From positions 1 through 59,721 of the forward strand of contig JAUQPD010000024.1 in NCBI GenBank assembly GCA_030550555.1: DNA of 59,721 nt, in the 5' to 3' direction. The notes under the pieces were generated by a model. That model was not told where the DNA came from, ran no database searches, and saw only the letters and a program-made list of their open reading frames with translations. Source of the DNA: Thermodesulfobacteriota bacterium. GTDB taxonomy: Bacteria; Desulfobacterota; Thermodesulfobacteria; Thermodesulfobacteriales; Thermodesulfobacteriaceae. Numbering within the stretch: position 1 is the stretch's first letter; each line of letters starts with the position of its first letter. Positions 8,455 through 35,750 of the stretch are shown piece by piece. Both the position numbers and the translations under genes were made by a program.

Positions 8455-11400
8455 CTAAAGTTTTCCTTTGCGGAAGCCAAAGAGAATAAGAGCTAAGAAA
8501 AGCGCAGAGAAGAGGAGATATAGATAGGGAAGGGGAGCACTTGAATAGCCTGCAGAAGCTGTTTTATGAACTTCAAGTTCAAAGCCTTCAAGGAGTTTTC
8601 CTTGTGGATGGGGAACTCCTGAGGGCTCATTTTGAGAAATGTGCTTCGTAGATGATCCCTGGGTGCTTTCTTCCATTTTCAGGTTTTCATAGGCCTTGAG
8701 AAATGTAGCTAAAAGATCCTTAGGAAGGGGAATTGAGAGAAGGACACTTTTTGTAAACTCCCTAAGAAAAGGGTTATTGCAAGTGTGATCACAACAGGCA
8801 AGGCCTACTTCCTTAACGGTTTCTGCAAATTCCCGAGCAAGAAATTCAGTCACTTCCCTTTCAGGTTGCCAGTATCCCTTTCTTATGACCTCTAACATTC
8901 TTGCTACGATTGATTGATAAGCCCATAAATTACCTGCATTTCTAAAGGCATCTTTTATCTTTAAGTTATAACGATCTTTTACATAGACCTCATACATTTC
9001 TTGCCACTTTGCGTGATCAATTATTTCTGGAGTGACCACCTGCCATCCCCAGAGGTGTTCAACCACCTTATCAATAAATCTGGCTCCTCCATAACCTTCC
9101 TTTAACATCTTTTCAATCCACTTGGGATTTAGGTAACGCGCTCTTAGTTCTCTTCCCATAAATCTTTCAAGGGACTCCTGCTTTGGTGCAAAGGGGTTTG
9201 AAAGATTGGTCACTACAAGCATTGGTGTTTTTCCATCAATTACACGGATCGCAAGGGCAATACCACCTAAATACTGGAAAAAGTCGTCATTGTCCAAGGT
9301 TGCAAAAGTGTTTGTTGATCTGCTGTGGAGAGCAATTTTGGTCCCTGAGAGGGCTTTTTTGAATAGGTATAGATGAAGTTCTTGGCTACTTTGGTTAAAA
9401 TTCTTTATGTTATATGCCTCTCCCCAGAAGCCTTGCCCATAAAGATGTCCCATTCTCATGAAGAATACCTCTGCAATCTCCTTTTCTTCCCTCCAGGTAT
9501 GAGAAAGAGGGATCACTTTATCAAGATTAGGGCCATAAGCACCAGGAGGAACGGTAAAGATCCTGACACTGGCTAATCTTGATGCTAAATCTTCTGGAAC
9601 ACCCATTTCCCTTAATTCTCTCTCAGCTTCAAGGAAATTCTTTCTAAGGTGATTTTCTTCCTCATTGAGCTCTCTGACCAAAGTAATTGCCCTATCAATT
9701 AGAGCAAGGAGATTAGGGAAAAGATCTCTATAGAGACCAGAAGGTACAATCACTATATCTGGTCTTGGTCTTTTAAGTTGGTCCTGAGGAATAAGCTCAA
9801 GATCGTAAATTCTTCCCCTCTCATCCCATTTTGGTCTTACTCCAAGTAAGAAAAGGATTTGAGCTTCCATAACACCTTCATGCCGCATGGTTTCTGTTCC
9901 CCAGAGGGTAAAGGTGAGTTTGTCTGGGAACCTATTGTGCACTCTGAAATAATCTTCAAGAAGATCATTTGCAAGTTTTACAGCAAGTTCATAAGTTGTC
10001 TTTGAGGGAATCCGTGAGGGATCAAAAGAGTAAAAATTTTTCCCAGTAGGGAGGGAGTTTGGATTCCGAAGAGGATCTCCACCAGGTCCCGCTCGAACAT
10101 ACTTTCCTTCAAGAGCACGTATTAAAGATTCAAGCTCTGCATCACCAGATGCTTTGAGACGTCTCTGGTAGTCTTTCAAAAGGGCCTCTCGTGCCTCTGG
10201 ATCCACATTTTTATCGAGGGAGACCATCGCCTTTGCAGTGGCAAGGATGGCATCCTCATCAGGAGATCTACCAAAGGTGTGAAGGCCAAAGGGGATCTTC
10301 TGCTCAGTAATTTCCTTTAAGTGTTCTTCAAGGGTTTCAAGCTCTTCTTCACTCTTTATAGCACTCAAATTTAAGTCCACTAAGAGGCCCTTCTTTTCAG
10401 CAAGTTTGTTGATCTCAACAAGTTTAGCTTCTGCAAGGGCAGGGTTTTTCTCTTTTGCAGTTTTGTAGGAATCAATAAGGTTCAGAAGAACTCGCAAGTC
10501 ATCATAGGATGAGGCTTCATCAAAAGGAGGCGTCATGTGGTCTATGATTACTGCAAGGCCTCGTCTTTTTGCCTGAGTCCCTTCACCGAGGTTGTCAACA
10601 ATATAGGGATAAATATTAGGTAGATCCTCTATGAGGACCTCTGGGGGATCCTCCTGAGAAAATCCTACCTCTTTTCCAGGAAGCCATTCATGGGTGCCAT
10701 GGGTTCCGAGATGAATTATCGCATCAGCTTTGAAAGTATTCCTCAAATAAAGGTAAAAAGCTATATATTGATGATGAGGGGAGATAGAGATGTCGTGATA
10801 GATCTTCTTTATATCTTGTTCCCAGCCTCTTGAGGGCTGAGGAGTAAATAGGATATTTCCATATACAAGGCCTGGTATTAGGATATACTTTTTTCCACCT
10901 TGATCTTTCCAAAGCATGATTTTACTATTCTCAGGTGGCCCCCAGTCCTCAAGCACCTTTTTTTGAAAATTCTTGGGTAATTTTTTAAACCACTCTTTGT
11001 ATGTCTCTATAGGAATGAGAATTGCCCGTCCCGAACGAGCAAGTTCATCGATCTCCTTTGGTGCCCAATTCCCGATGTTTCTTCCATACCTCATTATCTC
11101 CCTGAATAGGTGCTCCTTTGTAAGAGATTCATCTACACGATAGCCTTCTTTTTTCAACCTTTCATAGATGTTCCACAAGCTTTCAGGCAAAACATTCAGA
11201 TAGGAAGCCCCAATATTTTGTTTACCAGGTGGATAATTATAATAGATAATAGCAACTCTTTTTTCAGAGTTTTGTTTATCTTGAAGATTAATCCAAGCCT
11301 TAACTCGTTTAATCAGACGTTCAATTCGTTCTGGAATAGGAGTATCTTCTATATAAATTTGTCCTGTTTCTGGGTCAAGTATTTTCTCTTTTGTTGCAAC

Positions 11401-12435
11401 AATTGTGGGTTGAATAATGCCTCCCATCTCAGGCTGAGCAATCTGCCAGGATCTCTCCATAATATTAAGCCCTATGGGAGAGTTCTCCCACTCACTCCTT
11501 GTCATGTTGTAGAGAGTTATGGCATTGAGCACCGGAACTCCCAACTTTTCAAACACACGAGATGCAACCTGGGGATTTAGCCCTACCTTTAGGGAGAGGC
11601 CGATAACTGCCCTAACCCTTGAACGCCCCTCTTCATCAAAGAAAAATCTCTCAACTGCAACTTCCCCAGGGAAACCAAAGACAGGGATAACAGAAAATCC
11701 CTCCCTTTCTAAAGCTTCAATTAGGGCATTTACAACACTAATCTGACCGGTTACATAGGAATTCTTATAGAAGACAATTCCTATGGATGGTTTTCTAAAG
11801 TAATCTTCACCCTTTGCCTGATAATAGGCATCAAAGGTCTCAAAGATTTTTCCCGAAACTCGATCATATATTGCAAACTCAGGGACTCTCCTTACTGGTT
11901 CAACCTCAAGGGCATAATTAAAGTCTCTTTTCAGAGCATAGAAAAGCATATTTCTTAAATTATCGATTCCACCTTGGCTGTAATACTCATCCACTATCGG
12001 GTCATAGATGATACCGAGGCGTTTCACCTCCTCATTGTAGGAGCTCTTTCCAGAGAGTGCATATACTTTTGCACCTCTTGAAATAGCCTTACTTAGATCC
12101 TCTTTTAGTTCGTAAAAAAGTATTCGTCCCATGATGTCAATAAATATTAGATCAGATTGCCTCAAAAAACTTAGATCCCTCCTCTTAATTTCTCCTTTAG
12201 GATATAAGGTTATATTTAAATTGAGGTTTTTGATATCATTTGATTTAATAAGTTTGAGAACAAGAGTTGTATAGCTATCTCCAATTACATAACTAATTTT
12301 TAGGTTCTCTTTTCCATAATTTGCTAATGCTCCATCCGAATGAAAGATGAAGAAAACAAAAATTAATATACTTAAGCTAATTGAAATTATTAATTTGAGT
12401 TTGATCAATATTTTATTTGAATTACTCTGGAACAT
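8455..12435 (-). CDS. cobN: Exported, membrane-anchored CobN-like metallochelatase homologue
   Basis: A 1326-aa member of the CobN/BchH family, the large porphyrin/corrin-binding subunit of class I chelatases. Family motifs are YYNYPPGKQNIGASY (about 398-412) and HLGTHGTHEWLPGK (about 575-588), plus WGTETMRHEGVME and GLACCDHTCNNPFLREF. Unlike cytoplasmic CobN, it begins with a basic then strongly hydrophobic segment (residues 8-31) and an ALA-N cleavage-like site at 36-39. It ends with one hydrophobic helix (about 1298-1320) followed by RKGKL. The predicted topology is therefore extracytoplasmic body with a C-terminal anchor. It overlaps the DUF2149 gene by 14 nt and closes the riboswitch operon. 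Inferred roles are metal insertion or removal on imported corrinoids, or corrinoid/cobalt transfer across the periplasm. It is not known to be a biosynthetic cobaltochelatase. Confidence 0.85.
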   Translation of the reverse strand: MFQSNSNKILIKLKLIISISLSILIFVFFIFHSDGALANYGKENLKISYVIGDSYTTLVLKLIKSNDIKNLNLNITLYPKGEIKRRDLSFLRQSDLIFIDIMGRILFYELKEDLSKAISRGAKVYALSGKSSYNEEVKRLGIIYDPIVDEYYSQGGIDNLRNMLFYALKRDFNYALEVEPVRRVPEFAIYDRVSGKIFETFDAYYQAKGEDYFRKPSIGIVFYKNSYVTGQISVVNALIEALEREGFSVIPVFGFPGEVAVERFFFDEEGRSRVRAVIGLSLKVGLNPQVASRVFEKLGVPVLNAITLYNMTRSEWENSPIGLNIMERSWQIAQPEMGGIIQPTIVATKEKILDPETGQIYIEDTPIPERIERLIKRVKAWINLQDKQNSEKRVAIIYYNYPPGKQNIGASYLNVLPESLWNIYERLKKEGYRVDESLTKEHLFREIMRYGRNIGNWAPKEIDELARSGRAILIPIETYKEWFKKLPKNFQKKVLEDWGPPENSKIMLWKDQGGKKYILIPGLVYGNILFTPQPSRGWEQDIKKIYHDISISPHHQYIAFYLYLRNTFKADAIIHLGTHGTHEWLPGKEVGFSQEDPPEVLIEDLPNIYPYIVDNLGEGTQAKRRGLAVIIDHMTPPFDEASSYDDLRVLLNLIDSYKTAKEKNPALAEAKLVEINKLAEKKGLLVDLNLSAIKSEEELETLEEHLKEITEQKIPFGLHTFGRSPDEDAILATAKAMVSLDKNVDPEAREALLKDYQRRLKASGDAELESLIRALEGKYVRAGPGGDPLRNPNSLPTGKNFYSFDPSRIPSKTTYELAVKLANDLLEDYFRVHNRFPDKLTFTLWGTETMRHEGVMEAQILFLLGVRPKWDERGRIYDLELIPQDQLKRPRPDIVIVPSGLYRDLFPNLLALIDRAITLVRELNEEENHLRKNFLEAERELREMGVPEDLASRLASVRIFTVPPGAYGPNLDKVIPLSHTWREEKEIAEVFFMRMGHLYGQGFWGEAYNIKNFNQSSQELHLYLFKKALSGTKIALHSRSTNTFATLDNDDFFQYLGGIALAIRVIDGKTPMLVVTNLSNPFAPKQESLERFMGRELRARYLNPKWIEKMLKEGYGGARFIDKVVEHLWGWQVVTPEIIDHAKWQEMYEVYVKDRYNLKIKDAFRNAGNLWAYQSIVARMLEVIRKGYWQPEREVTEFLAREFAETVKEVGLACCDHTCNNPFLREFTKSVLLSIPLPKDLLATFLKAYENLKMEESTQGSSTKHISQNEPSGVPHPQGKLLEGFELEVHKTASAGYSSAPLPYLYLLFSALFLALILFGFRKGKL

Positions 12436-12754
12436 ATATTATTCTTCCATCTTTTAATTGATATGCAGTGCCTAGTTTTACTCCTTCCCCTACAAGTTTT
12501 CTATCAGTTATTTTTTGAACTTTTATTTCTTTACCTTTTTTAGTTATAATTTCTAATCTGCCATCTTCTGTTTTTTTAGTAATAGTGACTTCAGATTTTG
12601 GATCGAGGAATTCAAGGAGGCTGTATGCCATAAATAGTGCAATCATCATACTAACGATAAATACTACACTTGCATCAAAAAGGTTTGCAACTCCTGTAAG
12701 GGGATCTTCAATATTTTGTTCAAATGAGAGAGTCCTTCGTTTTCTTCTCTTCAT
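12422..12754 (-). CDS. DUF2149 family, ExbD-like single-span membrane protein
   Basis: A 110-aa protein with a short basic N-terminus (MKRRKRR). One membrane helix (about residues 27-48) is preceded by DPLTGVANLFD, which places an aspartate at the start of the helix as in ExbD/TolR/MotB. The small C-terminal domain predicted to be periplasmic is rich in KKTEDGRLEI-type strands. The Asp is the expected proton-path residue by analogy with ExbD. It directly follows the ExbB-like gene (gap 11 nt) and overlaps cobN, so the three form a module. It is recognised as DUF2149 from overall form; its function is undetermined. Confidence 0.75.
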   Translation of the reverse strand: MKRRKRRTLSFEQNIEDPLTGVANLFDASVVFIVSMMIALFMAYSLLEFLDPKSEVTITKKTEDGRLEIITKKGKEIKVQKITDRKLVGEGVKLGTAYQLKDGRIIYVPE

Positions 12755-12765
12755 CTGTTTACCCC

Positions 12766-13344
12766 TTAAATATTGATATCATTATTCTTGTTTTTGAGTT
12801 TTCTTAGAGTAATTTCGGTTAGGTATTCCATTTCTGCTAAATCTGCTCTAATCCAGCGTTCTTTTGTCATAGACAAAAGGAAGGCAACAACACTACATGC
12901 AAGTCCAACGACAACTGTTGTAAAGGCAGTTACCATTGAGCCAGCCATTCGTGGTAGGTCTCCTTGAGCAAGGGCAGAAAGGGCAATACCCATAGGAATC
13001 AGTGTCCCCATAAGCCCAAGAGCAGGCCCCACTCTAACTACAAAGCGAATTCTATCAAATGATTTAATCAATATAACCTCCCACTTCTGATAGATATATT
13101 CAATTTCTAAATCTATGTTTTGTCTATCTTTTGTTTCTGTAATAATCCTATTTAATTCCTCTTTAAAGGCCTCAACAAAGGCTTTATGCCCACTTTTTCG
13201 TTCTATATACTCACGAAGAAAGACTCCAAGATAAAAGAACATATAAAACACAAGGAATGTAAGACTAAGAAGCACAGGAAGAAATAGTACTGAAGAGACA
13301 ACAAAGAGAAAACTTTCAAGTAAGGCAGTCAGCTTTATCTCCAA
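12766..13344 (-). CDS. MotA/TolQ/ExbB-family proton channel protein
   Basis: A 192-aa membrane protein with three hydrophobic segments (about 11-35, 105-130 and 138-160). It carries the family core RVGPALGLMGTLIPMGIALSAL and FTTVVVGLACSVVAFLL, in which small and polar residues line the channel. ExbB-like proteins form a pentameric channel around ExbD-like dimers and convert proton motive force into mechanical work. The neighbour encoded next is the ExbD-like DUF2149 protein, then the exported CobN-like protein. I infer that it energises that pair rather than TonB, although it could also serve the divergent TonB. It overlaps the DUF2162 gene by 10 nt. Confidence 0.85.
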   Translation of the reverse strand: MEIKLTALLESFLFVVSSVLFLPVLLSLTFLVFYMFFYLGVFLREYIERKSGHKAFVEAFKEELNRIITETKDRQNIDLEIEYIYQKWEVILIKSFDRIRFVVRVGPALGLMGTLIPMGIALSALAQGDLPRMAGSMVTAFTTVVVGLACSVVAFLLSMTKERWIRADLAEMEYLTEITLRKLKNKNNDINI

Positions 13345-14045
13345 GTTCTACATCTCCCTAATAAAAAGCCTAAAATAAATACTAAAATAAAAGTAATTAC
13401 CAAAGCAATAAGGTAATCTATAGAAATTTGCATAAGATGAGTTGAAGTATTCTTTTCGTAAAAATCTTTTGCTATTTCGATTTTTGAAGGAATAATAAGA
13501 GAGCCAATTATGTAAATTCCTGTAAAAATCATCATTAGAGAAATGGCAATATCCTTCCTTTGTGGACTAATATTTTTTGTAAAAAATTTGAGTAATAAAT
13601 AATTAAATAGTACAATCAAACTAAATGTTAGACTTAATACTAAGCTTAAGTTGAAAAAGGAAATCTTGAAATACTTAGTGTAAAAAATTAGGGTGCTTAT
13701 TATTGCAGAGATACATGCTGGGCAGGGTATAAGGAGTAGTCCACGAAAGAGAGGTTTAGAAGTTTTTTGAGTTAATAGGATATAGATTCCCCACAGAATA
13801 ATGACTAAGGATATACCAATGTGAATAAGTGGTTCCTTTGAGATAAGAGATTGGGCAAAAGGAGTGAAGGATTTTGCAAGAGATGAGATTAATAGGAAAA
13901 AGATAAAATAAGAAAAAAGTGTGAGACAGATTGTCTTTATAGAACTTGAGATAGAGTAAAGCCCAAGGGCTACACGAGATGCAAGGGCATAAAGGATAAA
14001 GACAAGACCTATCGCAAAGGCATATTCACTGATCTTTTCAGTCAT
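13335..14045 (-). CDS. DUF2162 family polytopic membrane protein (putative transporter)
   Basis: A 236-aa integral membrane protein with about six hydrophobic segments and the motif LLIPCPACISAI in the middle, characteristic of DUF2162. This family is thought to be related to LysE/RcnA-type small transporters. It lies between cbiZ (gap 29 nt) and the ExbB-like gene (10 nt overlap) in the cobalamin-riboswitch operon, and no BtuCDF ABC transporter is present in the window. I therefore infer an inner-membrane route for cobalt, cobinamide or a corrinoid fragment. The twin-cysteine PCPAC could bind a metal or form a disulfide. Confidence 0.7.
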   Translation of the reverse strand: MTEKISEYAFAIGLVFILYALASRVALGLYSISSSIKTICLTLFSYFIFFLLISSLAKSFTPFAQSLISKEPLIHIGISLVIILWGIYILLTQKTSKPLFRGLLLIPCPACISAIISTLIFYTKYFKISFFNLSLVLSLTFSLIVLFNYLLLKFFTKNISPQRKDIAISLMMIFTGIYIIGSLIIPSKIEIAKDFYEKNTSTHLMQISIDYLIALVITFILVFILGFLLGRCRTWR

Positions 14046-14074
14046 AATCTAATCCCAACAGGAGTAATTTCCCT

Positions 14075-14818
14075 TTAATAATGGTCCTGCTTTTTGAGAC
14101 CTAAAATAACTGCCTCATATACTGCCTTGGCAATAAGCTCTCCAATTTTGCTATGGCCACCAGTGTAGGTAACTAAGGGACCTGTTGTCCCAGAAACAAC
14201 TACGACTGAGTCTGTGCCTGTTCCTGTTGCAATTAAATGGGGAGAATAACTACTTCTTACTTTTAGATCCTGAAAAGCAGAGGTTTTAGCTTCGGTAACT
14301 GTAATTATCGCTCTTGCCATAGCAGATTCAGTGAGAATTGCATTTGTAAGGACAATAATATTTACTGTTCCACCCCCTCTTGCTTCCTCTATGTGGTGTC
14401 CTTCGTCATATCCTGCTCTTAAGGCATTGGTCTTTGCTCCTGCAGTTACTAAAGCAGTTACAATATAGGGCTCATATCTTTTAGTTACGACTGCCAGGTT
14501 GTCCATGTCCACTGCAGTAGCAACCAATGCAACTTCCTTAGGTCTTATACTCAGAATATCTGCAATTTTCTTCCTAATTTCTTCCATGTAGACCTTGCCT
14601 CCAACCTTTGAACCAATCTTTTTCTTTTCACACAGGTCCTTCCAGATAAGGGGATGGGCAGAGTGATTCACCACTGCCCTTGCCTCTAAAAATCCGTCAT
14701 TAGTTGATAGGGTCTTTCTCTCAGTTGGAAAGGTGATAAGAAGGGTTTTCTCCCAAAGACCATCTCTGTCCTTACGAATTATTCTTGCTTCAGCTTTTAA
14801 TTCGGGGGGGGAGGACAA
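14075..14818 (-). CDS. cbiZ: Adenosylcobinamide amidohydrolase CbiZ (with an out-of-frame signal-peptide leader upstream)
   Basis: CbiZ hydrolyses the aminopropanol amide of adenosylcobinamide to give adenosylcobyric acid in corrinoid salvage. The family core is visible: VNHS, KEVALVATAVDMDNLAVV, AGAKTNALRAGYDEG, ARGGGTVNIIVLTN, GTGTDSVVVVS and YTGGHSKIGELI. The intact frame can start only at TTG 14818. Just upstream, ATG 14915 opens a second frame encoding a typical signal peptide (MLLQVLSWSLSLISIIFVSL, then more hydrophobic residues and SSQKVSSSQDIVLPP). The two frames would join exactly if the run of eight C (14804-14811, coding strand) were seven C. The native protein may thus be an exported CbiZ, with the base a real frameshift, slippage site or sequencing error. 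It lies 21 nt after btuB. Confidence 0.85.
   Translation of the reverse strand: MSSPPELKAEARIIRKDRDGLWEKTLLITFPTERKTLSTNDGFLEARAVVNHSAHPLIWKDLCEKKKIGSKVGGKVYMEEIRKKIADILSIRPKEVALVATAVDMDNLAVVTKRYEPYIVTALVTAGAKTNALRAGYDEGHHIEEARGGGTVNIIVLTNAILTESAMARAIITVTEAKTSAFQDLKVRSSYSPHLIATGTGTDSVVVVSGTTGPLVTYTGGHSKIGELIAKAVYEAVILGLKKQDHY
14804..14811 (-). other. Homopolymer (C8 on coding strand) at the cbiZ leader/body junction
   Basis: Eight C on the minus strand separate the signal-peptide frame (starting at ATG 14915) from the CbiZ frame. Removing one C fuses them without other change. Such tracts are classical sites of slippage or phase variation, and also of sequencing error. Confidence 0.7.
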
Positions 14819-14936
14819 TATCCTGAGAAGAGCTAACTTTTTGAGAGGACAGAATCAAGCTCACAAAAATTATGGAAATAAGCGAAAGACTCCAGCTCAA
14901 GACTTGAAGCAACATGTCCCCCCCTTATTTGTTAAA

Positions 14937-16913
14937 TTAATACCTCAATGTTAGACCGACTCTAATTGTCCTTTCAGGCATTGGATAGGCTTGCACATAT
15001 TCGTAGGCTCTGTTGAAGAGATTTTCAACCTTTGCATAGGCTTCAACATTTTTATGTGGCTTTACTTTCAGAGCAAGATTAAAAATGGTAAAGTCCTTTT
15101 TGGGGATTGCTTTTCTATAAGTGGGCGAAGAAAATTTCCAGTCAATTACCATTTCGTCTCCGACATAGATTCCCTGAAAGTCAAAAAGTAATCGCTGAGA
15201 GCCACCCCTCAGACCAAAAGTTCCTGTCCACTTGGGTGTCCAAAGAAGGGTAGTTGTGCCGATGTTTTGAATCTCTGCTTGGTCTTTACTCCTCATCCGA
15301 GTGTGATAGGTTAAATCCACGTATGGCTCAAGAGAAAAGGGAATGCCAAGGAAACCTGCAAGTTCAGCTGAAAAGTTTAACTCAAAGCCTTGAATCTCTG
15401 CTCCATCAACATTTTGATAGGTATTTACATTACCATAGAGAGTTACAATTTTATCCTTATAGTTTGTGATGAAATAGGCTACATCAAATTTTATCTCCCC
15501 GTATTTATAGCTAAGCCCAAAGTCAAAAGTTAAGCTCTTTTCAGGTTTGAGATTGGGGTTCCCAAGCCATCTACCCCATGGAGAGGTGTAATCAGCAGTG
15601 AGTTCATCAGGAGCAGGTGCTCTAAAGCCTGATGAGAGATTGGTCTTCAAGCTTAGGGCTTGATTTATGTTATAAGCAAGCCCTCCACGAAAGGTGAAAC
15701 GGTCAAAACTTTTTTCTCTGGGATTTACCAAGAGGCCCTCTGTAGAGAGAATCTTTGCCTTAAAATTATCGTAGCGCGAGCCCACGTTAAAAATTAATTT
15801 CTCTTCAAATGGCTTTAGTTTTAGCTCAGAAAACACTGCAAAATTCATAAACTCGGACCTTGGATAATACGGAGCGCCAATTAATTTGAAAGATTTCACA
15901 TTAATCTCACTTACATCTACTCCCATGAACAATCTGAGACTTTTTTTTGGTGTAAAATTTCCAAGTATGGAAGCTCCTGTCGTGATTGTTTTCTTTCTGG
16001 TATAATTCTTTTTCAGAGGCTCATGCCACTCATCAATATCTTCAATTCTAAATGTCTTTATTTTTAAGTAGGGGTTGCTGTAGTCTACTTGGAGGGAGGT
16101 CCTTCCTTTATCGGAATAGTCAAAGAGCTCTGGCCGATATCTTGGTCCTGGAGTACCTATTTTCCAACCTTTCATATACTGGAAATTCAGGAGAAAATCA
16201 TGTCTGTTCACAGGTTGGAATCCCAACTTTGCAGAGACTGCCTCTAAGTCCCAGCTGGTGTTGGGTATTCTTCCATAATGCTTTGCGTCGTAGTCGTTTT
16301 GAGCACTGCGAGAGATCATAATGTAGAAATCAACAGGCCCCCTTTTCCCCATAAGCTCTGCCTTCCCTTTGTAATAGTCCCAAGAACCAAGTTCAGCAGA
16401 AACTTCAGCCTCTATCCCCTCTTCCTTTGCCCTTTTGGTTATAATATTTACAACTCCTCCCATCGCCTGGGACCCATAGATTACCGATGCAGGCCCCTTT
16501 ACAATCTCTACCCTCTCTACATCATCTAAAAGCAATTTTGAGAGATTAACAGTTCCTGCAGGAGCCCCATCTATCAGAAAGAGGACTCTACTTTTTTGTT
16601 GGTCAAAAAGGTCTGAAGTAAGACCTCTTATGGCCACTCTCGAAGTGAGAAACCCTGGATATTTGTGGACATGCCCAAGTCCTGCCTGAATCAGAAGATC
16701 TCCGAGATCCTGAGCAGTGCTTAGCTCAATTCTCTCCTTAGAGATAACTTGAACAAAGGAGGTCACCTCACTCTTAGGTTCCTCTATGCGAGATGCGGTA
16801 ACGACTATTTCATCAAAGGTTTGAGAGCCCTCACCAAGGGCAGGCGAGGAGTTAGCAAGAGTAAAGATACATGGTACGAGAAAAGACAATAAAAAATTTT
16901 GTCTTTTCTCCAT
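14937..16913 (-). CDS. btuB: TonB-dependent outer-membrane receptor, BtuB-like (cobalamin/corrinoid)
   Basis: A 658-aa outer-membrane receptor. An N-terminal signal peptide (about 1-27, ending SPALGEG) is followed by a TonB-box-like DEIVVTASR (about 34-42). The plug domain contains VLFLIDGAPAG and VERVEIVKGPASVIYGSQAMGGVVNIIT. The 22-strand-type barrel ends with IRVGLTLRY, a C-terminal aromatic as needed for BAM recognition. SD GAGGAGG precedes ATG 16913. The cobalamin riboswitch immediately upstream shows that the substrate is a corrinoid. Downstream cbiZ suggests it also brings in cobinamide or other incomplete corrinoids. Confidence 0.9.
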   Translation of the reverse strand: MEKRQNFLLSFLVPCIFTLANSSPALGEGSQTFDEIVVTASRIEEPKSEVTSFVQVISKERIELSTAQDLGDLLIQAGLGHVHKYPGFLTSRVAIRGLTSDLFDQQKSRVLFLIDGAPAGTVNLSKLLLDDVERVEIVKGPASVIYGSQAMGGVVNIITKRAKEEGIEAEVSAELGSWDYYKGKAELMGKRGPVDFYIMISRSAQNDYDAKHYGRIPNTSWDLEAVSAKLGFQPVNRHDFLLNFQYMKGWKIGTPGPRYRPELFDYSDKGRTSLQVDYSNPYLKIKTFRIEDIDEWHEPLKKNYTRKKTITTGASILGNFTPKKSLRLFMGVDVSEINVKSFKLIGAPYYPRSEFMNFAVFSELKLKPFEEKLIFNVGSRYDNFKAKILSTEGLLVNPREKSFDRFTFRGGLAYNINQALSLKTNLSSGFRAPAPDELTADYTSPWGRWLGNPNLKPEKSLTFDFGLSYKYGEIKFDVAYFITNYKDKIVTLYGNVNTYQNVDGAEIQGFELNFSAELAGFLGIPFSLEPYVDLTYHTRMRSKDQAEIQNIGTTTLLWTPKWTGTFGLRGGSQRLLFDFQGIYVGDEMVIDWKFSSPTYRKAIPKKDFTIFNLALKVKPHKNVEAYAKVENLFNRAYEYVQAYPMPERTIRVGLTLRY

Positions 16914-16963
16914 AAGTCCACCTCCTCGGGCAGAGTTTTATGGAGCGGGGTTTTACCCCCTTT

Positions 16964-17150
16964 TGCTTGCTGGACAGGTCTTCCGGCTTAGGGCACCTTT
17001 GGCCTACTCGCCCGCCTTCCCAGGGGAACCGCCTTAACCGATTTCCGGAAAAGGCAGTCCTTTCCCCAGTGGCTTTAGTGGGCTTTCGTTCCCATCACGG
17101 CTGCGGGACAGCGGGGGAATCTCACCCCTCTTCCCTTAGTCCAGCAAGCA
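16964..17150 (-). ncRNA. Cobalamin (B12) riboswitch upstream of btuB
   Basis: Read on the minus strand, the element is closed by a 12-bp perfect P1 stem: TGCTTGCTGGAC (17150-17139 region) pairs with GTCCAGCAAGCA (16975-16964). It contains the conserved GCCACTG segment of the core and the 3' B12 box AAGCCGGAAGACCTGTCC. The expression platform (16914-16963) has a GGGG-TAAAA-CCCC hairpin and a CTCC (complement of 16942-16945) able to pair with the btuB Shine-Dalgarno GGAG (complement of 16922-16925). This suggests control at translation initiation. It probably governs the whole btuB-to-cobN operon. Confidence 0.93.
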
Positions 17151-17334
17151 GATCTAATTAGAATTTTTTCCTCAACCCACCTCTACCCCATTTCTCACCC
17201 CCCCACCAATCAAAATTCTCTCTCCCAGTTAGATACCCGCTCTTTCATAGCTTTGGCAAATTCAAAAATTAGATTAAATTACAATAAAGTAACACAAGAT
17301 AACATCATCCAATAATACTGGTTGTTAATAGAAA
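17151..17334. other. Intergenic region between the B12 riboswitch and divergent tonB
   Basis: This AT-rich spacer must hold promoters for the riboswitch transcript (leftward) and for tonB (rightward). TTGGCA with AT-rich downstream bases near 17258 is a possible tonB -35, but no convincing -10 at standard spacing was found. No second riboswitch was seen before tonB. Confidence 0.4.
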
Positions 17335-18168
17335 GTGAAAAAATTAACGCTCTATAGAATTCCGCATCTGCCTATTAGGAAGTTTTTAGAAAGAAATGGG
17401 CTACATTCTGGGGCTCTTTTAGCATCTCTTCTTTTTCATCTATTGTTAATCCTTTGTTTAGTTTTCACAGGCCCTCTATCAAAAGATAGTAAAAGGGAAC
17501 TAATAGTAATAGACTTTAGACTTTCTTCATTGGACCCCCTACAGGAAGGCAAAATAGCTTCTTCAAAAGGAGGTCCTCATAAACCAGTAGAGGAACACAA
17601 CCAGGAAGCAAATATGGAGAGGTCATCTGGAGTTAAAGAAGAGGAACAGAAGAAATCTCAAGAAGGCATTGAGTTAAGACAAGAGGTAAGATCGGACCCC
17701 TTGGATGGGAAGTTGAAGGTTGAAGGATTGTCTCTTAGAGAGGGGGAAAAGGGTGAAGAGGGATACAGGGATAGAGGAGGGCAAGCAGTTCTTGAGGGCG
17801 GAGCAAAGTTGGGGACTGGTGATCTGAGCGATAAGAGTTCTCTGAGTGGAGGAGATGGTGGACAAGAGAAGACAGGTGAAGAAGCATCCCAGAAGTATTT
17901 GACAGAAAATTTCAAATATATCAGGGAAATTATTGCGAGGAATACCTTTTATCCCCCACTTGCAAGGCGAATGGGCTGGAGTGGAAAGGTAACGCTCTCC
18001 TTCGTAGTTGCAGAGGATGGAAGTGTCCGTGATATACAAATAATTGAAAGATCAGGTTATGAAATCCTTGACAGATCAGCGGTAGAAACAGTAAAACGTA
18101 GTGCTCCTTTTCCAAAACCTCCTGTAGCTGTAAGAATTATCCTTCCAATAGTCTATAGACTAAACTAA
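17335..18168 (+). CDS. tonB: TonB energy-transducing protein
   Basis: A 277-aa protein with an N-terminal membrane anchor (about residues 25-46, SGALLASLLFHLLLILCLV). A long charged, Gly/Glu/Lys-rich linker follows (about 60-180), instead of the classical Pro-rich one. The C-terminal TonB domain contains FYPPLARRMGWSGKVTLSF, VAEDGSVRDIQI and the SAVETVKRSAPFPKPP motif. It transmits proton-motive energy to TonB-dependent receptors, presumably the adjacent BtuB-like receptor. GTG 17335 is used; its ribosome binding site is weak. It overlaps the convergent yihY-like gene by 4 nt. The only ExbB/ExbD-like pair in the window is the DUF2149 module in the divergent operon. Confidence 0.9.
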   Translation: MKKLTLYRIPHLPIRKFLERNGLHSGALLASLLFHLLLILCLVFTGPLSKDSKRELIVIDFRLSSLDPLQEGKIASSKGGPHKPVEEHNQEANMERSSGVKEEEQKKSQEGIELRQEVRSDPLDGKLKVEGLSLREGEKGEEGYRDRGGQAVLEGGAKLGTGDLSDKSSLSGGDGGQEKTGEEASQKYLTENFKYIREIIARNTFYPPLARRMGWSGKVTLSFVVAEDGSVRDIQIIERSGYEILDRSAVETVKRSAPFPKPPVAVRIILPIVYRLN

Positions 18169-29305: not shown

Positions 29306-30340
29306 ATGAAGTCCCATCAATATCCCTTTTCCGCAATTGTGAATCAGGAGGAGCTAAAACTTGGTTTAATTCTCAATGTAATTGATCCCAGCATAGGAGG
29401 GCTTTTAATTGTTGGAGAAAGAGGCACAGGAAAGAGCACTGCGGTAAGGGCTCTTGCTAATCTTCTTCCAGAAATTACTGTTGTGAAAGATTGTCCCTTT
29501 AATTGTAATCCTCAAGGCCCGCTTTGTACCTATTGTGAAGAGCTCCTCAAGGTTGAGGGGACCCTTCCTGTGACCTCAAAAAAGATGGAAGTTGTGGAAT
29601 TACCTCTTGGTGTAACCGAAGATAGAGTGCTCGGAACCCTCGACTTAGAGTATGCCCTTCGCTATGGAAGAAGAAAATTTGAACCCGGAATCCTGGCTAA
29701 CGCCAATCAAAACTTCCTCTATATTGACGAGGTAAACCTTCTTGAAGACCATATAGTGGACCTCCTACTTGATGTCTCCGCAATGGGGATACACAGAGTT
29801 GAAAGAGAGGGACTCTCCTTTGTGCATCCCTCTCGGTTTATCCTTGTGGGATCTATGAACCCAGAAGAAGGGGATCTTAGGCCCCAATTCTTAGATAGAT
29901 TTGGTCTCTCTGTAAAAATAAAAACTATAACCTCAAAGGAAGAAAGAAAAGAAATTCTTAGGAGAAGACTTCGCTTTGATCTTGAGCGCGAAGAGTTTCT
30001 CCGTGAGTGGGAACCAGAAGAGCAGGCACTTAGAGAGAAGATTATTAGAGCTCGGGAACTCTTACCAAAAGTGGAAACTACTGAGGTGATTCTTGATCTC
30101 ATTGTAGAGCTCACAACAGGTGTGACCCTTGATGGTCATAGAGGAGATATTGTTCTCTTAAAGGCAACAAGAGCCCTCTCTGCCTTTGAGGGAGAGAGCT
30201 TTACAAAACCTGAACATCTCCTTAAAGTTGCTCCTCTTGCTCTCAGACATCGGCTAAAGCGAAAACCCTTTGAGGCTCCCGAAGAAGAGGAGAGAAAACT
30301 TTATGACCTTCTCTCTCTACTCTCCCGAAAAAATCTATAG
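29306..30340 (+). CDS. chlI: Magnesium/cobalt chelatase AAA+ ATPase subunit (ChlI/BchI family)
   Basis: A 344-aa AAA+ motor of class I chelatases. Walker A is GERGTGKSTAVRAL (37-50). The family insert DCPFNCNPQGPLCTYCEELL is present, as is ELPLGVTEDRVLGTLDLEYAL. Walker B is FLYIDEVNLLEDHIV, sensor 1 is LVGSMNPEEGDLRPQFLDRFGL, and VTLDGHRGDIVLLKATRALSA follows. In cobalamin- or chlorophyll-making organisms it drives metal insertion with ChlD and a CobN/BchH subunit. No chlorophyll genes are seen, so a cobalt-related role with a CobN-like partner is inferred. It overlaps chlD by 38 nt. Confidence 0.9.
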   Translation: MKSHQYPFSAIVNQEELKLGLILNVIDPSIGGLLIVGERGTGKSTAVRALANLLPEITVVKDCPFNCNPQGPLCTYCEELLKVEGTLPVTSKKMEVVELPLGVTEDRVLGTLDLEYALRYGRRKFEPGILANANQNFLYIDEVNLLEDHIVDLLLDVSAMGIHRVEREGLSFVHPSRFILVGSMNPEEGDLRPQFLDRFGLSVKIKTITSKEERKEILRRRLRFDLEREEFLREWEPEEQALREKIIRARELLPKVETTEVILDLIVELTTGVTLDGHRGDIVLLKATRALSAFEGESFTKPEHLLKVAPLALRHRLKRKPFEAPEEEERKLYDLLSLLSRKNL

Positions 30341-32231
30341 CTCCCAGGTAGAGGCCATTAAAATCCATACAGAAAAGGCCTTCCCAGAGATAAAGGGAAA
30401 TTTCTATCCAAAACTTGGACTCTTGTTGAACCTAATTGAGCCTGCTTGTGGTGGTATTTTCATTGTGGGAAAAAGGGGAACTGGGAAAACAGCACTCCTT
30501 CAGGATTTTAAAAGGCTCTGCCTAAGGATGAATAAGCCTTTTCTGGAGGTTTCTGCCACTCACTCCAAAGAAGCCCTCCTCGGTTTTCCCGATTTTGAAC
30601 AAATTTTAAGAAAGGGAACCTCTTCTTATTGTCAAGGTCTCCTTGAAAGAGCTCTCGGGAAGTTTCTCGTTATTGACGATTTTCACCTTCTTGAACCTGA
30701 AATTCAAAAGATCCTAATCCACAATAACCATAAATATGTCCTGATTGCCACCCTCTCTTCCGATGAAAACCTCAATCAATGGAGCTTAGATAAAATTGGA
30801 CTCTTTTCACAAACCCAAGAGTTCACTGAAAAAGATAAAAGAAAAGAACTCCTTATCCTAAAAATTATATCAGAGCGAACTTGGAACTTGCCTTCTGGTT
30901 TTCACCAGGCTTTAGATCCTGAATACTTTAATCTACTAAAGGAAACGCAAAGACAATTGCATAGGTTAACAGTAGATGAAAAAGCTATTTCTAAAATTGT
31001 TGATAGGATTAATGAACTTGGTATACCTTCTCATAGAGCTGAGGTTACCCTGTATTATGCCCTAAGGGCCCTCTCAGCTCTTCTCCTTTCTAAAGGGCTT
31101 GTTCTTGAGCTTCTTCCGTTACTTGAGCCCCTTGTTTTTAGTCATCGTCTCACAATTGAAAGAGGGACCTTAAAAGAGGGGGATAGAGATGTTGAGAAAG
31201 AAGGGCTTATAATTAGGAAAGATGGAGTTATGTGGAGTGACAAAGAGGGTGCAAAGGGGTTAGATAGAAACAGAGCTTCTCAAGATAGTGTGGAAAAAGG
31301 CAAAGAGGAAGAAGTAAGTGTCCCTTTAGATATGTTAGAGGATTGTATTTCCCGTAGGTCAAGGGAGGAGGTTTTTCCTATAAGAAGAGTGGGAGATCTT
31401 TCTTATGTTCTTAGAGAAGTTAAAGCAGAACACTCGGGTCTGAGAAAAGAAATTAGGGTTAATTTTGAAGGGAAGAGTAGATCGGGAGTTAGAGAGAGCC
31501 TCAAGAAGGTTTTTAGGGTGAAGTTTGATATCTTAGGGACTCTTATTAGAGCATCCTTACTTCAACCCATTAGAGGGGGCTGGAAAGAGGGAGAGGTCGT
31601 TAAAATCTATAGGGAAGACCTTGTCTACAGAAGGGTTCCTCAGAATTTGAGAGCCCTTTATTTATTCGTAGTTGATGCCTCTGGATCTCTTGGGGCAAGT
31701 AAGAGGATGGGGTTTGTTAAAGGAGCAGTTGCTTCTCTTTTTGAAGAGGCCTATAGGAGGAGAGATCAGGTTGCAGTGATTGTTTTCAGGGACTTTTCTG
31801 CAGAGCTTTTGCTTGCGCCAACAAGATCCTCCCATATTGCCCTTGAGAAGATTAGGGAGACAATCACGGGGGGCTATACTCCCCTTTCAGCAGGGCTTCA
31901 AAAAGCTCTTATCCTCTCTCAAAGCTTTAGGCAGAAGCATAGGTTTAATCCAATTTATCTTATTCTTTTAACTGATGGCAGGGCTAACATCTCCATTAAA
32001 AAAGGGGAAGACCCCTTTGAGGAGGCTTTGAAAATCTGTCACTCCCTCACGAGAATTTCAAATCTCTACAGTGTGGTTATTGATAGCGAAAGTACTGAAA
32101 GCGAGATCAGGTTTGGCCTTGCAAGGGAGCTTGCAAGGGCTTTAAGTGCAAGATACTATAGTCTTGATGAAGTAATATGGTCCTCTCTTGGCAAGACAGG
32201 AAAATCCTTTAAGATAATTGCTACTCTGTAA
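30303..32231 (+). CDS. chlD: Chelatase subunit with AAA+ and VWA domains (ChlD/BchD family)
   Basis: About 642 aa. The N-terminal AAA+ domain has an intact Walker A (GKRGTGKTALL), where many ChlD proteins are degenerate, and FLVIDDFHLLE as Walker B. A charged linker (about 290-350) leads to a C-terminal von Willebrand A domain. The MIDAS motif is DASGS at 458-462, then GGYTPLSAGL and LLTDGRANI. ChlD couples the ChlI motor to the metal-substrate subunit. ATG 30303 with AGGAG upstream is preferred to TTG 30270. The next gene, reverse gyrase, follows after 12 nt, so it is probably on the same transcript. Confidence 0.88.
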   Translation: MTFSLYSPEKIYSSQVEAIKIHTEKAFPEIKGNFYPKLGLLLNLIEPACGGIFIVGKRGTGKTALLQDFKRLCLRMNKPFLEVSATHSKEALLGFPDFEQILRKGTSSYCQGLLERALGKFLVIDDFHLLEPEIQKILIHNNHKYVLIATLSSDENLNQWSLDKIGLFSQTQEFTEKDKRKELLILKIISERTWNLPSGFHQALDPEYFNLLKETQRQLHRLTVDEKAISKIVDRINELGIPSHRAEVTLYYALRALSALLLSKGLVLELLPLLEPLVFSHRLTIERGTLKEGDRDVEKEGLIIRKDGVMWSDKEGAKGLDRNRASQDSVEKGKEEEVSVPLDMLEDCISRRSREEVFPIRRVGDLSYVLREVKAEHSGLRKEIRVNFEGKSRSGVRESLKKVFRVKFDILGTLIRASLLQPIRGGWKEGEVVKIYREDLVYRRVPQNLRALYLFVVDASGSLGASKRMGFVKGAVASLFEEAYRRRDQVAVIVFRDFSAELLLAPTRSSHIALEKIRETITGGYTPLSAGLQKALILSQSFRQKHRFNPIYLILLTDGRANISIKKGEDPFEEALKICHSLTRISNLYSVVIDSESTESEIRFGLARELARALSARYYSLDEVIWSSLGKTGKSFKIIATL

Positions 32232-32243
32232 TCAGGAGGAGAG

Positions 32244-35200
32244 ATGTTATTCTATCTTGCGAAGGGGTGTCCAAACTGTGGAGGGCAGATTTCTGATGAG
32301 AGATTGTTTTTGGGACTTCCTTGTGAGTCCTGTCTACCAAAAAAGACTCTTGAAAAAAAAGGGAAGGACCTAAAAGAGATTATAGATTCTCTTAAGAGAC
32401 AAAAAAGACTTAGAAATCTTAAGACCTTCGCAAAGGTGGAAGAGGATGTTCAGAAGTTCATAGAGGTCTTTGAGGAGATCCTAAAGGTCAAACCTTCATC
32501 CCTTCAGATAAGTTGGGCAAAACGTTTTTTCCTTGGGGAGTCCTTTGCCATAGTTGCTCCAACTGGAACTGGGAAGACAACATTTGGTCTTCTCATTTCT
32601 CTGATTAACCCCGGAAAGACCTTGATAATTGTTCCTACAAAGGTGCTTGTTGCCCATTTGACAGAACGTCTCCTTTCACTTCAAGAAAAGACTTCCAAAA
32701 CTGAGCTCAGGACAAAAAAAATCCTTTCTTACACCGGTTCTTTAAAAGAGAAAACAATACTTGAAAAGGGCGACTTTGACATTTTTGTCTGTACTCAAGC
32801 CTTTTTTCATAGAAACCTTGATCTTCTGCGAACAGTAGATTTTTCTTTGATATTTGTTGACGATGTAGACTCCTTTTTGAAAAGTGGCAAAAATGTAGAG
32901 CACCTATTTCTTTTACTTGGATTTACCGAAGAGGAAATTCAACTTGCCTTAAAGAGAGACAAAGACGAAGAGGATTATGAGGAACTAACAAAAATAAAGG
33001 AACGTCATCAAAAGAAATTAAAAAGATTAATAGTTTCTTCTGCTACTCTTAAACCAAGAACAGGAAGAGCTATTCTTTTTCAAAATCTTCTTGGCTTTGA
33101 GATAACTCGATTTGTTTCTTCGTTGAGGAAAGTAAGAGATCTTTATCAGGTCGTGGAGACCGGAGATTTACATGGGCTATGTCAGCAAGCTTTGTCTGCC
33201 ATTGAGGTGCTTCGCGAGGGGGGGATTCTCTTCGTTGAGGAGTCCTTTGGCAGAGAGGGAGTAGAACAGGTAACTAATTTTTTCAGGGAGAGAGGGCTAA
33301 ATGTCATTTCCTACTTAGAAGTAGATGAGGAGGAATTGCTCGAACAGCTCAAGTCAGGAAAGGTGGATCTTGCTGTGGGGCTTGCAAATCTCGGGAATCC
33401 TCTTTTGAGAGGTATTGATCTACCAGAAGTTTTACGATATGTTATTTTTCTTGGAGTTCCAAAACATCGATTCCCTCTGCTAAAAACAAAGGAAGGTTTT
33501 GAACTCCCCCTCTCCATTCCTTTTCTTCACAATCTCATACTCTCCCTACTTCCCCTGTTTGTTGACGAGGAGAGATTACAGGGCATCTCCTATTTGAATT
33601 ATCTGAGGAAATATCTTACTTTGAAGGATGAACTTCTCTCTCAATATGAGGGTATTCTAAAACGAGTAACAGAGATAAGAGATTTCTTAAAGACCAAATT
33701 GCTTGATCCTGAGTTTATAGAAGCTTTGAGAAACTCTGATGAGGTCTTTTTAGAGGTTCAAGATGACACCTACTACGTGGTCATTGGGAATGCGCAGGTC
33801 TACTTACAAGGTTCTGGGAGAGTTTCCAGGCTAACCGCACGAGGACTTCTCCCAGGGCTCTCTCTTCTCTTTGTCGAAAATTTCAAGGCCTTCAAGAGCC
33901 TAAAGAAACGTTTGAGATATTTTCTTGGCGAGGAGCCCGAATTTTTACAAGTAGACCTTGCAACCCTAAAGAAAATAGATGAAGAGCTACGGGAGGAACG
34001 AAGGAACCTCGCCTCCGTGAATCAAGACTTCAAGAATTATCTCATAATAGTTGAATCTCCCCATAAGGCAAAGACAATTGCAAGTTTTTTCGGAAAACCT
34101 TCGAAGAGGCGAATTAAATCTCTTTGGGTCTATGAGATTCCGCTTGAGGATACTCTATTGTCTGTATGTGCAACAATGGGGCATCTATTTAATCTCTCAA
34201 GAACTAAGGGTATATTTGGGGTGATCTCTGAAAATGGACATTTTCATCCAGTCTTTGATACTATTAAGATTCTAAAAGAATCTAGGGAAGAAATCGTTGA
34301 TGAAGATTTAGAACAGAGTGAGGAGGTCTTTGATAAGGGTGAAATAATTGAGGCCTTGCAGAATCTTGCTTATTGTTCCACAAAAACCTTCATTGCCTCC
34401 GATCCAGATTCTGAGGGCGAGAAGATTGCCTATGATCTTTTCATTAATCTGAGACCCTTTCAGAAGGAGATTAAGAGACTGGAATTTCATGAAGTGACTC
34501 CGCGAGCTCTAAGAAGGGCCCTTGAAAATCCTGGTGACATAAACCTACATAGGGTTATGGCTCAACTTGCAAGACGGGTTGCAGATCGCTGGGTTGGATT
34601 TTCCCTCTCAAGAGAATTATGGCAAGCTTTTCAAAAAAGAACCCTCTCTGCAGGAAGAGTGCAAACCCCTGTGCTCGGTTGGGTCATAAAACGGGCAGAA
34701 GAGGCAAAAAGTCACAAATATCGTCTTCAATTCTATTTAGGTGAACGCCCCTTTGTCCTTGAATTTGAAGATGAAGAATTAGCAAAGAAAGTGCTCTCTG
34801 AACTTCCAGAATTAAAGATAAATATTCTTGAGGAATTTGTTGAGGACCTTTCACCTCCACCTCCTTACACGACAGACACTATTCTTGAAGAGGCCTACTA
34901 CTATTTTCGTTATCCCACCTCTAAGACCATGGCCCTACTCCAAGAGCTATTTGAGCTTGGGCTTATCACTTATCATAGGACAGATTCAACGAGGATCTCC
35001 GATGTTGGCAGATATCAGGTTGCCAGACCTTATATAGAGAAGACTCTCGGGGAGGACTATTTCTATCCAAGAGAGTGGGCTAGAGAAGGGGCCCATGAGG
35101 GAATACGTCCTGCTCATCCCTGGGATGTAAGTGAAATAAAACTGCGAGTTGCCCATGGCTTTATAACCTTCAGAGAACCAAGAGATTCTTTACGACTTTA

Positions 35201-35750
35201 CGATCTCATATTCCGAAGATTTATGGCAAGTCAGACAGTCCCCGTCAAGATTCGGAAAGGTAGACTTGAGTTTATCCTTCCCTCCCATAAGTGGGAAGAG
35301 GCCCTGCCCCTTGAAATAATAAAATCTGGCTTTGACCACTTTTGGAAAATTCCAAGCCCCTTTGTAATTCCTGAAGTAATTACTCCTGAAAAAGCAGAAA
35401 TTCATCGAGTACCAAGGGTCTATCTTTACAATCAGGGAAGCCTAATTCAGGAAATGAAAAAAAGAGGCCTTGGTAGACCATCAACCTATGCAGAGATTGT
35501 CTCAACCCTACTTTACAGACGTTACATTATAGAGATAAAAACTGGTGCCCTAGTACCTACCCCTCTTGGAAAAAAAGTCTATGAATACCTTTACCAGCGA
35601 TTTCCTCAATTTGTCTCTGAAGAGTTCACAAGAGAATTAGAAGAATTCATGGATGCTGTGGAAAGAGGCGAGAAAAATTGGGAAGAAATTTGTATCAAGC
35701 TCAAAGGCCTCGTTGATGAAGTCTTAAGATATAATTTAGATAAAAATTAA
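32244..35750 (+). CDS. rgy: Reverse gyrase
   Basis: ATP-dependent type IA topoisomerase that introduces positive supercoils, found in thermophiles. A 1168-aa single polypeptide. An N-terminal zinc finger has Cys 9, 12, 27 and 30. The helicase-like half has Walker A APTGTGKTT (105-113), a DEAD-type VDDVDSF and SSATLKPR. The latch region is followed by the Toprim domain YLIIVESPHKAKTIASFF, with DPDSEGEKIAYDL acidic residues. The catalytic tyrosine is Tyr910 in LGLITYHRTDSTRI. The second zinc finger often found in the topoisomerase half is not evident. ATG 32244 follows AGGAGGAG. Confidence 0.96.
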   Translation: MLFYLAKGCPNCGGQISDERLFLGLPCESCLPKKTLEKKGKDLKEIIDSLKRQKRLRNLKTFAKVEEDVQKFIEVFEEILKVKPSSLQISWAKRFFLGESFAIVAPTGTGKTTFGLLISLINPGKTLIIVPTKVLVAHLTERLLSLQEKTSKTELRTKKILSYTGSLKEKTILEKGDFDIFVCTQAFFHRNLDLLRTVDFSLIFVDDVDSFLKSGKNVEHLFLLLGFTEEEIQLALKRDKDEEDYEELTKIKERHQKKLKRLIVSSATLKPRTGRAILFQNLLGFEITRFVSSLRKVRDLYQVVETGDLHGLCQQALSAIEVLREGGILFVEESFGREGVEQVTNFFRERGLNVISYLEVDEEELLEQLKSGKVDLAVGLANLGNPLLRGIDLPEVLRYVIFLGVPKHRFPLLKTKEGFELPLSIPFLHNLILSLLPLFVDEERLQGISYLNYLRKYLTLKDELLSQYEGILKRVTEIRDFLKTKLLDPEFIEALRNSDEVFLEVQDDTYYVVIGNAQVYLQGSGRVSRLTARGLLPGLSLLFVENFKAFKSLKKRLRYFLGEEPEFLQVDLATLKKIDEELREERRNLASVNQDFKNYLIIVESPHKAKTIASFFGKPSKRRIKSLWVYEIPLEDTLLSVCATMGHLFNLSRTKGIFGVISENGHFHPVFDTIKILKESREEIVDEDLEQSEEVFDKGEIIEALQNLAYCSTKTFIASDPDSEGEKIAYDLFINLRPFQKEIKRLEFHEVTPRALRRALENPGDINLHRVMAQLARRVADRWVGFSLSRELWQAFQKRTLSAGRVQTPVLGWVIKRAEEAKSHKYRLQFYLGERPFVLEFEDEELAKKVLSELPELKINILEEFVEDLSPPPPYTTDTILEEAYYYFRYPTSKTMALLQELFELGLITYHRTDSTRISDVGRYQVARPYIEKTLGEDYFYPREWAREGAHEGIRPAHPWDVSEIKLRVAHGFITFREPRDSLRLYDLIFRRFMASQTVPVKIRKGRLEFILPSHKWEEALPLEIIKSGFDHFWKIPSPFVIPEVITPEKAEIHRVPRVYLYNQGSLIQEMKKRGLGRPSTYAEIVSTLLYRRYIIEIKTGALVPTPLGKKVYEYLYQRFPQFVSEEFTRELEEFMDAVERGEKNWEEICIKLKGLVDEVLRYNLDKN

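Follow-up and report, generated by a model that had tools for sequence, protein, structure and literature searches.

Which task could a CobN-like protein fulfil outside the cytoplasm, in an operon that also encodes an ExbB-like channel and stands under a cobalamin riboswitch? This question is raised by a contig of a Thermodesulfobacteriota bacterium (JAUQPD010000024.1, assembly GCA_030550555.1; hereafter the window, i.e. the whole stretch of 59,721 nucleotides analysed here), for which a first-pass annotation made from the sequence alone had proposed a periplasmic machine handling corrinoids. Our reading is that the operon encodes a corrinoid-directed equivalent of the heme-demetallating Hmu machine, namely a periplasmic corrinoid (de)chelatase coupled to the proton motive force (PMF) and devoted to B12 or cobalt salvage, to which we give about an even chance (roughly 0.5). 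It builds on the observed gene set, export topology, motif class and phylogeny of the CobN-like protein, on the linkage with riboswitches and with ExbB/DUF2149, and on the distinctness of this pair from the TonB motor.

Organization of the operon

All the genes of the operon are on the minus strand, in the order TonB-dependent receptor, CbiZ, DUF2162, ExbB-like, DUF2149 and CobN-like; they all passed the family cut-offs in profile searches and their adjacent reading frames overlap or almost abut. Together with RF00174, these matches agree with the genes, order and coordinates of the first-pass annotation. The features are the following:

16956-17159, minus strand: cobalamin riboswitch aptamer at the operon head (RF00174, 81.2 bits for a gathering score of 31.5 bits, E 1.8e-18; 105.5 bits with our own model)
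14937-16913, minus strand: TonB-dependent outer-membrane receptor, BtuB-like by context (PF00593/PF07715)
14790-14915, minus strand: signal-peptide reading frame of CbiZ, starting MLLQVLSWSLSLISIIFVSLILSSQKVSSSQDIVLP, out of frame with CbiZ (read from the sequence)
14804-14811, minus strand: run of eight C splitting the CbiZ frame from the signal peptide (read from the sequence)
14075-14818, minus strand: CbiZ, adenosylcobinamide amidohydrolase, predicted periplasmic (PF01955, E 4.6e-52)
13335-14045, minus strand: DUF2162 membrane protein, predicted transporter (PF09930, E 1.2e-25)
12766-13344, minus strand: ExbB-like proton-channel subunit of the HmuU type (MotA/TolQ/ExbB; PF01618, E 2.2e-10)
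12422-12754, minus strand: DUF2149 protein of the HmuV type, with a single transmembrane helix (PF09919, E 7.5e-31)
8455-12435, minus strand: exported, C-terminally anchored CobN-type protein of the chelatase superfamily, 1326 aa (PF02514, E 0)
17335-18168, plus strand: TonB gene, divergent from the operon (PF03544)

A relative of HmuS, predicted to be exported, with a CobN-type active site

The CobN-like protein starts with MFQSNSNKILIKLKLIISISLSILIFVFFIFHSDGALA, a typical and strongly hydrophobic Sec signal peptide followed by NY after the cleavage mark, and ends with LPYLYLLFSALFLALILFGFRKGKL, a hydrophobic helix followed by basic residues. These strong hydrophobic segments at both ends agree with the signal peptide and C-terminal anchor announced in the first-pass annotation, and the topology calls, which are hydropathy-based, predict a protein that is exported and anchored, not cytoplasmic. 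The anchor is found in 90 of 91 exported homologues and in none of the 37 full-length cytosolic ones; the Cys tail that the window protein carries (CCDHTC, near residues 1214-1219) is likewise absent from these 37.

The closest solved structure is that of HmuS (9d26, E 3e-159), the characterised heme dechelatase of gut-dwelling Bacteroides, whose operon also holds HmuU (ExbB) and HmuV (DUF2149) (PMC12583661, PMC10434189); genes of the HmuU/HmuV type are present in the two hmu loci fetched for comparison (L214, L215). In a phylogenetic tree, the exported CobN proteins and HmuS form one clade (SH-like support 0.998, 40 tips), with the window protein in a corrinoid branch apart from HmuS. The operon shares with HmuS-HmuT-HmuU-HmuV an exported and anchored CobN-superfamily protein of the same clade, adjoining ExbB and DUF2149 partners and a TonB-dependent receptor. 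HmuS 9d26 and the window protein also have in common a Cys-containing tail past the point where cytosolic CobN stops; the two HmuS proteins from plasmids that were examined keep this tail, with the cysteines absent. The operon differs by its riboswitch, CbiZ and DUF2162, where hmu has HmuY and HmuT, and no riboswitch was found in the two true hmu loci. The first-pass annotation knew of no assigned mechanism for such gene sets, which does not hold in general given their homology to HmuS-HmuU-HmuV (PMC12583661, PMC13227078): the kind is already known and the operon is a corrinoid variant of it, not a new category.

The active site of this variant is of another class than that of HmuS. The HLGTHG motif at 575-580 corresponds to the HFG(T/A)HG motif bearing the catalytic His538 of HmuS, which is common to the whole superfamily. 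The second motif, LDNDDFFQYLGG at 1047-1058, belongs to the LDxDD..Q..GG class and matches true CobN (LDSDDYYQFEGG in 9uk9 and 9fpc, ADSDDYFQYHGG in 7c6o), differing from ChlH and from SLDHVYEFMGG of HmuS: instead of His1209/Glu1212 (LSLDHxxEFMGG, i.e. SLDH..E), the window protein has Asp1051 and Gln1054 (LDNDD..Q). At the head/neck heme site, formed by Met79-Gly80 and His254-Gly-Arg in HmuS, the Met is kept (DIMG) and His-Gly-Arg is replaced by SLKVG; the Met-rich insertion of domain IV spans about 15 residues versus about 220 in HmuS. The superfamily, the HxGTHG histidine and the LDxDD..Q..GG motif are shared with CobN of the CobNST cobaltochelatase, which unlike the exported and anchored window protein is cytosolic and anchor-free, and inserts cobalt with ATP and the AAA+ partners CobS/CobT.

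These comparisons bear on whether the protein could be a dechelatase of heme or another metal-tetrapyrrole merely sited under a B12 riboswitch. HmuS is the closest solved structure, its Met79 lines up with a Met of the window protein, and heme receptors appear among the matches of the receptor, for which NCBIfam profiles include both TonB-hemin and TonB-B12, none above cut-off, the substrate thus not being settled by family. We nevertheless hold this alternative to be scarcely probable, considering that His254, His1209/Glu1212 and the Met-rich insertion have no counterpart in the window protein and that the linkage with riboswitch and CbiZ recurs across phyla.

Two other versions of the set were encountered. 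In a side branch (L132, L133, L136, L157, L159), exported CobN-like proteins accompanied by ExbB-DUF2149 have lost the catalytic His and the Asp motif and display a GLLDxPMPAAYLGG type; none of the five loci yielded a riboswitch. On a plasmid of Azospirillum brasilense Sp7 (L219, 4000-8731), a CobN-ExbB-DUF2149 set with an HmuS-like STDHPFEYLGG lies near ABC genes, a receptor and nikR, and possibly concerns another metal.

An ExbB/DUF2149 pair that accompanies the exported CobN, a putative stator

The loci compared were fetched neighbourhoods and 80 named loci found with an alignment of the ExbB-like protein; those from metagenome-assembled genomes (MAGs) may contain errors. DUF2149 scores above cut-off in 34 of 297 genomes of the phylum, and the operon family is widespread among bacteria, with members in betaproteobacteria, Bacteroidota, anammox-type MAGs (Brocadia) and both sulfate and metal reducers. 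In all of 108 related loci DUF2149 comes after ExbB, and a CobN gene is present in 102 of 114, so the association of the pair with CobN is far above chance; the loci without CobN mostly end at or near a contig end, L144, L146, L153 and L158 being exceptions. A long ExbB reading frame in L061 was rejected as a start-codon overrun.

The same phylum holds many cytosolic CobN homologues, and no ExbB-DUF2149 lies beside those with fetched neighbourhoods. Their active-site motifs differ (SCTDYYNYYGG or GCCCYFGTHGG) and several have BtuF, a FecCD permease and a receptor as neighbours. Few exported-type proteins occur in genomes lacking a DUF2149 match, and each of these proteins is encoded at or near a contig end (L192, L193, L194, L196). 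Split by export, as the first-pass annotation had suggested, the survey therefore finds exported homologues nearly always beside ExbB/DUF2149 and the sampled cytosolic ones not. In L200-L204 and L209, cytosolic homologues with the GCC active-site motif are encoded as two genes (about 800 and 490 aa) together with BtuF and FecCD genes.

The ExbB-like protein shows the channel helices of the ExbB/TolQ/MotA family and aligns with canonical ExbB with an hhalign probability of 97%. In the DUF2149 protein, Asp27 at the start of the transmembrane helix is invariant among 34 sequences, in line with the ExbD-like Asp pointed out in the first-pass annotation. By profile, DUF2149 was rejected as a member of the ExbD family: the hhalign probability against PF02472 is 1.5%, and DUF2149 was not matched in the genome search for ExbD. 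Within this weak hhalign match, Asp27 lines up with the Asp of ExbD. The AlphaFold2 model of DUF2149 (predicted local distance difference test, pLDDT, 66) is too weak for use. From Asp27 and from its position after ExbB, DUF2149 may act like ExbD, with a putative role in proton transfer. The pair resembles TonB-ExbB-ExbD and related stators by its channel subunit and its small partner, whose single helix begins with an Asp, and differs from them by the lack of a significant ExbD profile match for DUF2149 and by an effector which appears to be CobN, not TonB.

In published work on hmu, HmuU/HmuV are credited with powering TonB import (PMC12583661, PMC10100974). Transposed to the window, ExbB/DUF2149 would be an ExbB/ExbD-like motor serving only TonB and the receptor, with the CobN-like enzyme running motor-free, as that stated role and the TonB gene, close by in 27 loci and divergent in the window, might suggest. 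We consider this rather improbable. Most surveyed loci are devoid of a TonB gene, and ExbB-DUF2149 follows exported CobN, not receptors in general. DUF2149 is also present in Methanosarcina acetivorans, an archaeon without an outer membrane where it was detected by a control search, and it has no ExbD profile match. Moreover, 15 loci hold a complete canonical TonB-ExbB-ExbD set beside ExbB-DUF2149, plasmid pSZ77 of Trichlorobacter being an additional case; because of this coexistence, the simplest reading would be that ExbB/DUF2149 is a second motor, dedicated to CobN and distinct from that of TonB. The divergent TonB of the window probably serves the receptor together with canonical ExbB/ExbD encoded elsewhere, two canonical ExbD genes being present elsewhere in the genome.

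Linkage to corrinoids and the possibility of import

A riboswitch lies upstream of ExbB on the same strand in 54 of 98 loci, and in about 57 when loci with an over-extended ExbB start are included; our own riboswitch model, whose E-values are rough, gave 74 matches in 1.65 Mb. The riboswitch and the periplasmic CbiZ point to corrinoids. The annotated start of cbiZ is wrong: the signal-peptide frame opens at position 14915 with an ATG that is immediately preceded by a purine-rich stretch, and it joins that of cbiZ only by a shift of frame at the 8-C run, due either to an assembly error or to (phase-variable) slippage. In a sister genome of the same genus (G128, L066), a comparable signal peptide is in frame with CbiZ, and more than 12 other genomes encode a fusion in which CbiZ is preceded by a signal peptide and by a binding domain of the BtuF type. 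Owing to the signal-peptide frame, its in-frame version in the sister genome and the fusions in relatives, the amidohydrolase most likely acts in the periplasm. An apparent DUF2149-BtuF-CbiZ fusion in L077 was rejected as an artefact of a run of N.

DUF2162 displays an invariant intramembrane P-C-P-x-C motif (residues 107-111), kept in 59-60 of 60 homologues, and an invariant H75. Its AlphaFold2 model is a helical bundle (pLDDT 84), which was compared with a view to a CcdA/DsbD or P1B-type metal-transport fold and had no Foldseek match at E<=0.001; a second structural comparison (VIA-align) gave middling matches to helical-bundle transporters. That neither CcdA nor DsbD was among the matches listed is no evidence against such a fold. 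The P-C-P-x-C motif would suit metal or electron transfer, and DUF2162 may transport metal ions or electrons instead of corrinoid. No profile supports HmuT as a relative of DUF2162, and this candidate was rejected. DUF2162 is common in Thermodesulfobacteriota-type loci and was rejected as a universal partner, being absent from the betaproteobacterial and Bacteroidota members; the conserved core is therefore ExbB-DUF2149-CobN.

The same genes could form an inner-membrane corrinoid importer, in which a CobN-like receptor driven by ExbB/DUF2149 passes corrinoid, either whole or trimmed by CbiZ, on to DUF2162 or a different permease and leaves the metal untouched. The riboswitch, the receptor and the periplasmic BtuF-CbiZ fit such a function, as does the occurrence of an ATP-binding cassette (ABC) importer gene in just 4 of 110 DUF2149-bearing loci, cytosolic CobN homologues being often found beside BtuF and FecCD. 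We judge it unlikely, though a serious alternative: in many members the operon lacks a permease, L082 has its own BtuF/FecCD genes yet keeps the exported CobN, and the protein conserves both the catalytic His and the Asp residues of the CobN type.

The absence of BtuCDF put forward in the first-pass annotation is true of the window and not of the genome, where a different contig carries an ABC importer of the FecCD type; at the genome level, the idea that this absence proves the importer to have been replaced was rejected. Since a same-genus relative of this importer (51-53% identical) adjoins cbiZ, the operon is not simply a replacement of BtuCDF.

AAA+ genes and endogenous corrinoid synthesis

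Neither CobS nor CobT was seen, in agreement with the first-pass annotation, but AAA+ genes of another type occur 17 kb from the operon and none within it:

29306-32231, plus strand: ChlI- and ChlD-type AAA+/VWA genes, of the magnesium-chelatase type

A further ChlD-like match lies on contig C11, and no cytosolic CobN/ChlH gene to go with ChlI/ChlD was found in the genome. The genome also carries its own cbi cluster for de novo synthesis, which includes a cobaltochelatase resembling CbiX. Judging from the translation, this cluster encodes an apparent CbiX-CbiC fusion (L042, 6134-7117). Since CbiX inserts cobalt early, the exported CobN-like protein would not be needed for the organism's own corrinoid synthesis.

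This bears on a periplasmic insertion of cobalt, by which the CobN-like protein would metallate metal-free corrinoids with the PMF in place of ATP. Its active-site residues are those of a bona fide cobaltochelatase; however, the sister protein HmuS runs in the opposite direction, the organism inserts cobalt early with CbiX, and metal-free corrinoids are not known to be common as substrates in the environment, all of which makes insertion very improbable.

Next to the ChlI/ChlD-type genes, positions 32244-35750 (plus strand) encode a 1168-aa protein with helicase-like and topoisomerase-like parts that, judging from its translation, resembles reverse gyrase and would suggest a thermophile.

A possible mechanism and its weighing

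In the corrinoid counterpart of the Hmu machine proposed here, the corrinoid substrate, the PMF coupling, the direction of the reaction and the role of DUF2162 are the parts that we infer. Under scarce cobalamin, the riboswitch would permit expression of the operon and the TonB-dependent receptor would take corrinoids into the periplasm, where the exported CbiZ, BtuF-fused in relatives, would remove the nucleotide loop. The anchored CobN-type protein could then bind the corrinoid within a central cleft, with the conserved HxGTHG histidine on one side and the Asp-Asp..Gln site on the other, and move cobalt across the ring, presumably by removal, as HmuS does with iron. The ExbB-like/DUF2149 stator may dock on the membrane anchor of CobN and supply energy from the PMF to open or close CobN or to release its product, replacing the AAA+ partners of cytosolic CobN; a PMF standing in for ATP is a reasonable, if putative, arrangement. 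The freed cobalt or the stripped corrinoid might finally be taken back in and reused by way of DUF2162, an ABC transporter or a cobalt transporter.

In 9 cases the operon is clustered with CbiK, which inserts cobalt in the cytosol, and in two Methylomonas loci ExbB comes after HupE/UreJ metal transporters; for these reasons, and because the only characterised relative removes metal (PMC12583661), removal of cobalt is favoured over insertion or transport. Several points weigh against the proposal. From an operon repressed by B12, one would expect the import of a corrinoid and not its dismantling, and HmuS, which turns heme into PPIX, needs in vitro only NADH-derived electrons and no motor (PMC12583661). 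The receptor matches point to heme families as much as to B12, DUF2149 does not match ExbD significantly by profile, and the betaproteobacterial and Bacteroidota members are without DUF2162. The genome itself makes corrinoids de novo with CbiX, has an ABC importer and carries ChlI/ChlD AAA+ genes in the same window. The most specific version, in which PMF-driven cobalt removal from periplasmic corrinoids, through an ExbB/DUF2149 stator acting on the CobN anchor helix, feeds a B12-regulated recycling of cobalt, is regarded as plausible yet less probable than not.

Related operons and significance

Comparable sets have been reported before. In Bacteroides fragilis, a cobalamin riboswitch precedes an hmu-like set without HmuY, suggested to concern cobalamin (PMC10100974), and BtuS is the name given to a third CobN type, as cited in PMC6460266; BtuS1 and the riboswitch-controlled hmu-like operons are by description alike to the present one, with a cobalamin riboswitch before an hmu-like set (PMC6460266; PMC10100974). 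The cobN cluster of Trichlorobacter (Geobacter) lovleyi pSZ77 was described earlier, its role being left open by the authors (PMC3403914). This cluster (L213) has the order receptor, DUF2162, ExbB, DUF2149 and CobN, the latter 52% identical to the window protein, with a tandem riboswitch upstream; it differs by the ExbB, ExbD, TonB and second receptor genes that follow CobN and by the absence of CbiZ. New here are the CobN-type LDxDD..Q..GG site in the corrinoid branch, the predicted periplasmic CbiZ, the invariant P-C-P-x-C of DUF2162 and ExbB-DUF2149 as a putative second motor.

The solved heme-demetallating HmuS is now tied to a large family of B12-regulated operons. If true, the proposed mechanism would be the first case of a metal chelatase driven by the PMF and of an enzyme that takes cobalt out of B12-type corrinoids, and an ExbB/DUF2149 pair serving a chelatase instead of TonB would mean that a stator motor can drive an enzyme, beyond transport or motility. 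The recovery of cobalt from foreign corrinoids by bacteria becomes a testable question, and Trichlorobacter lovleyi SZ, a host available in culture, carries the entire set on a plasmid.

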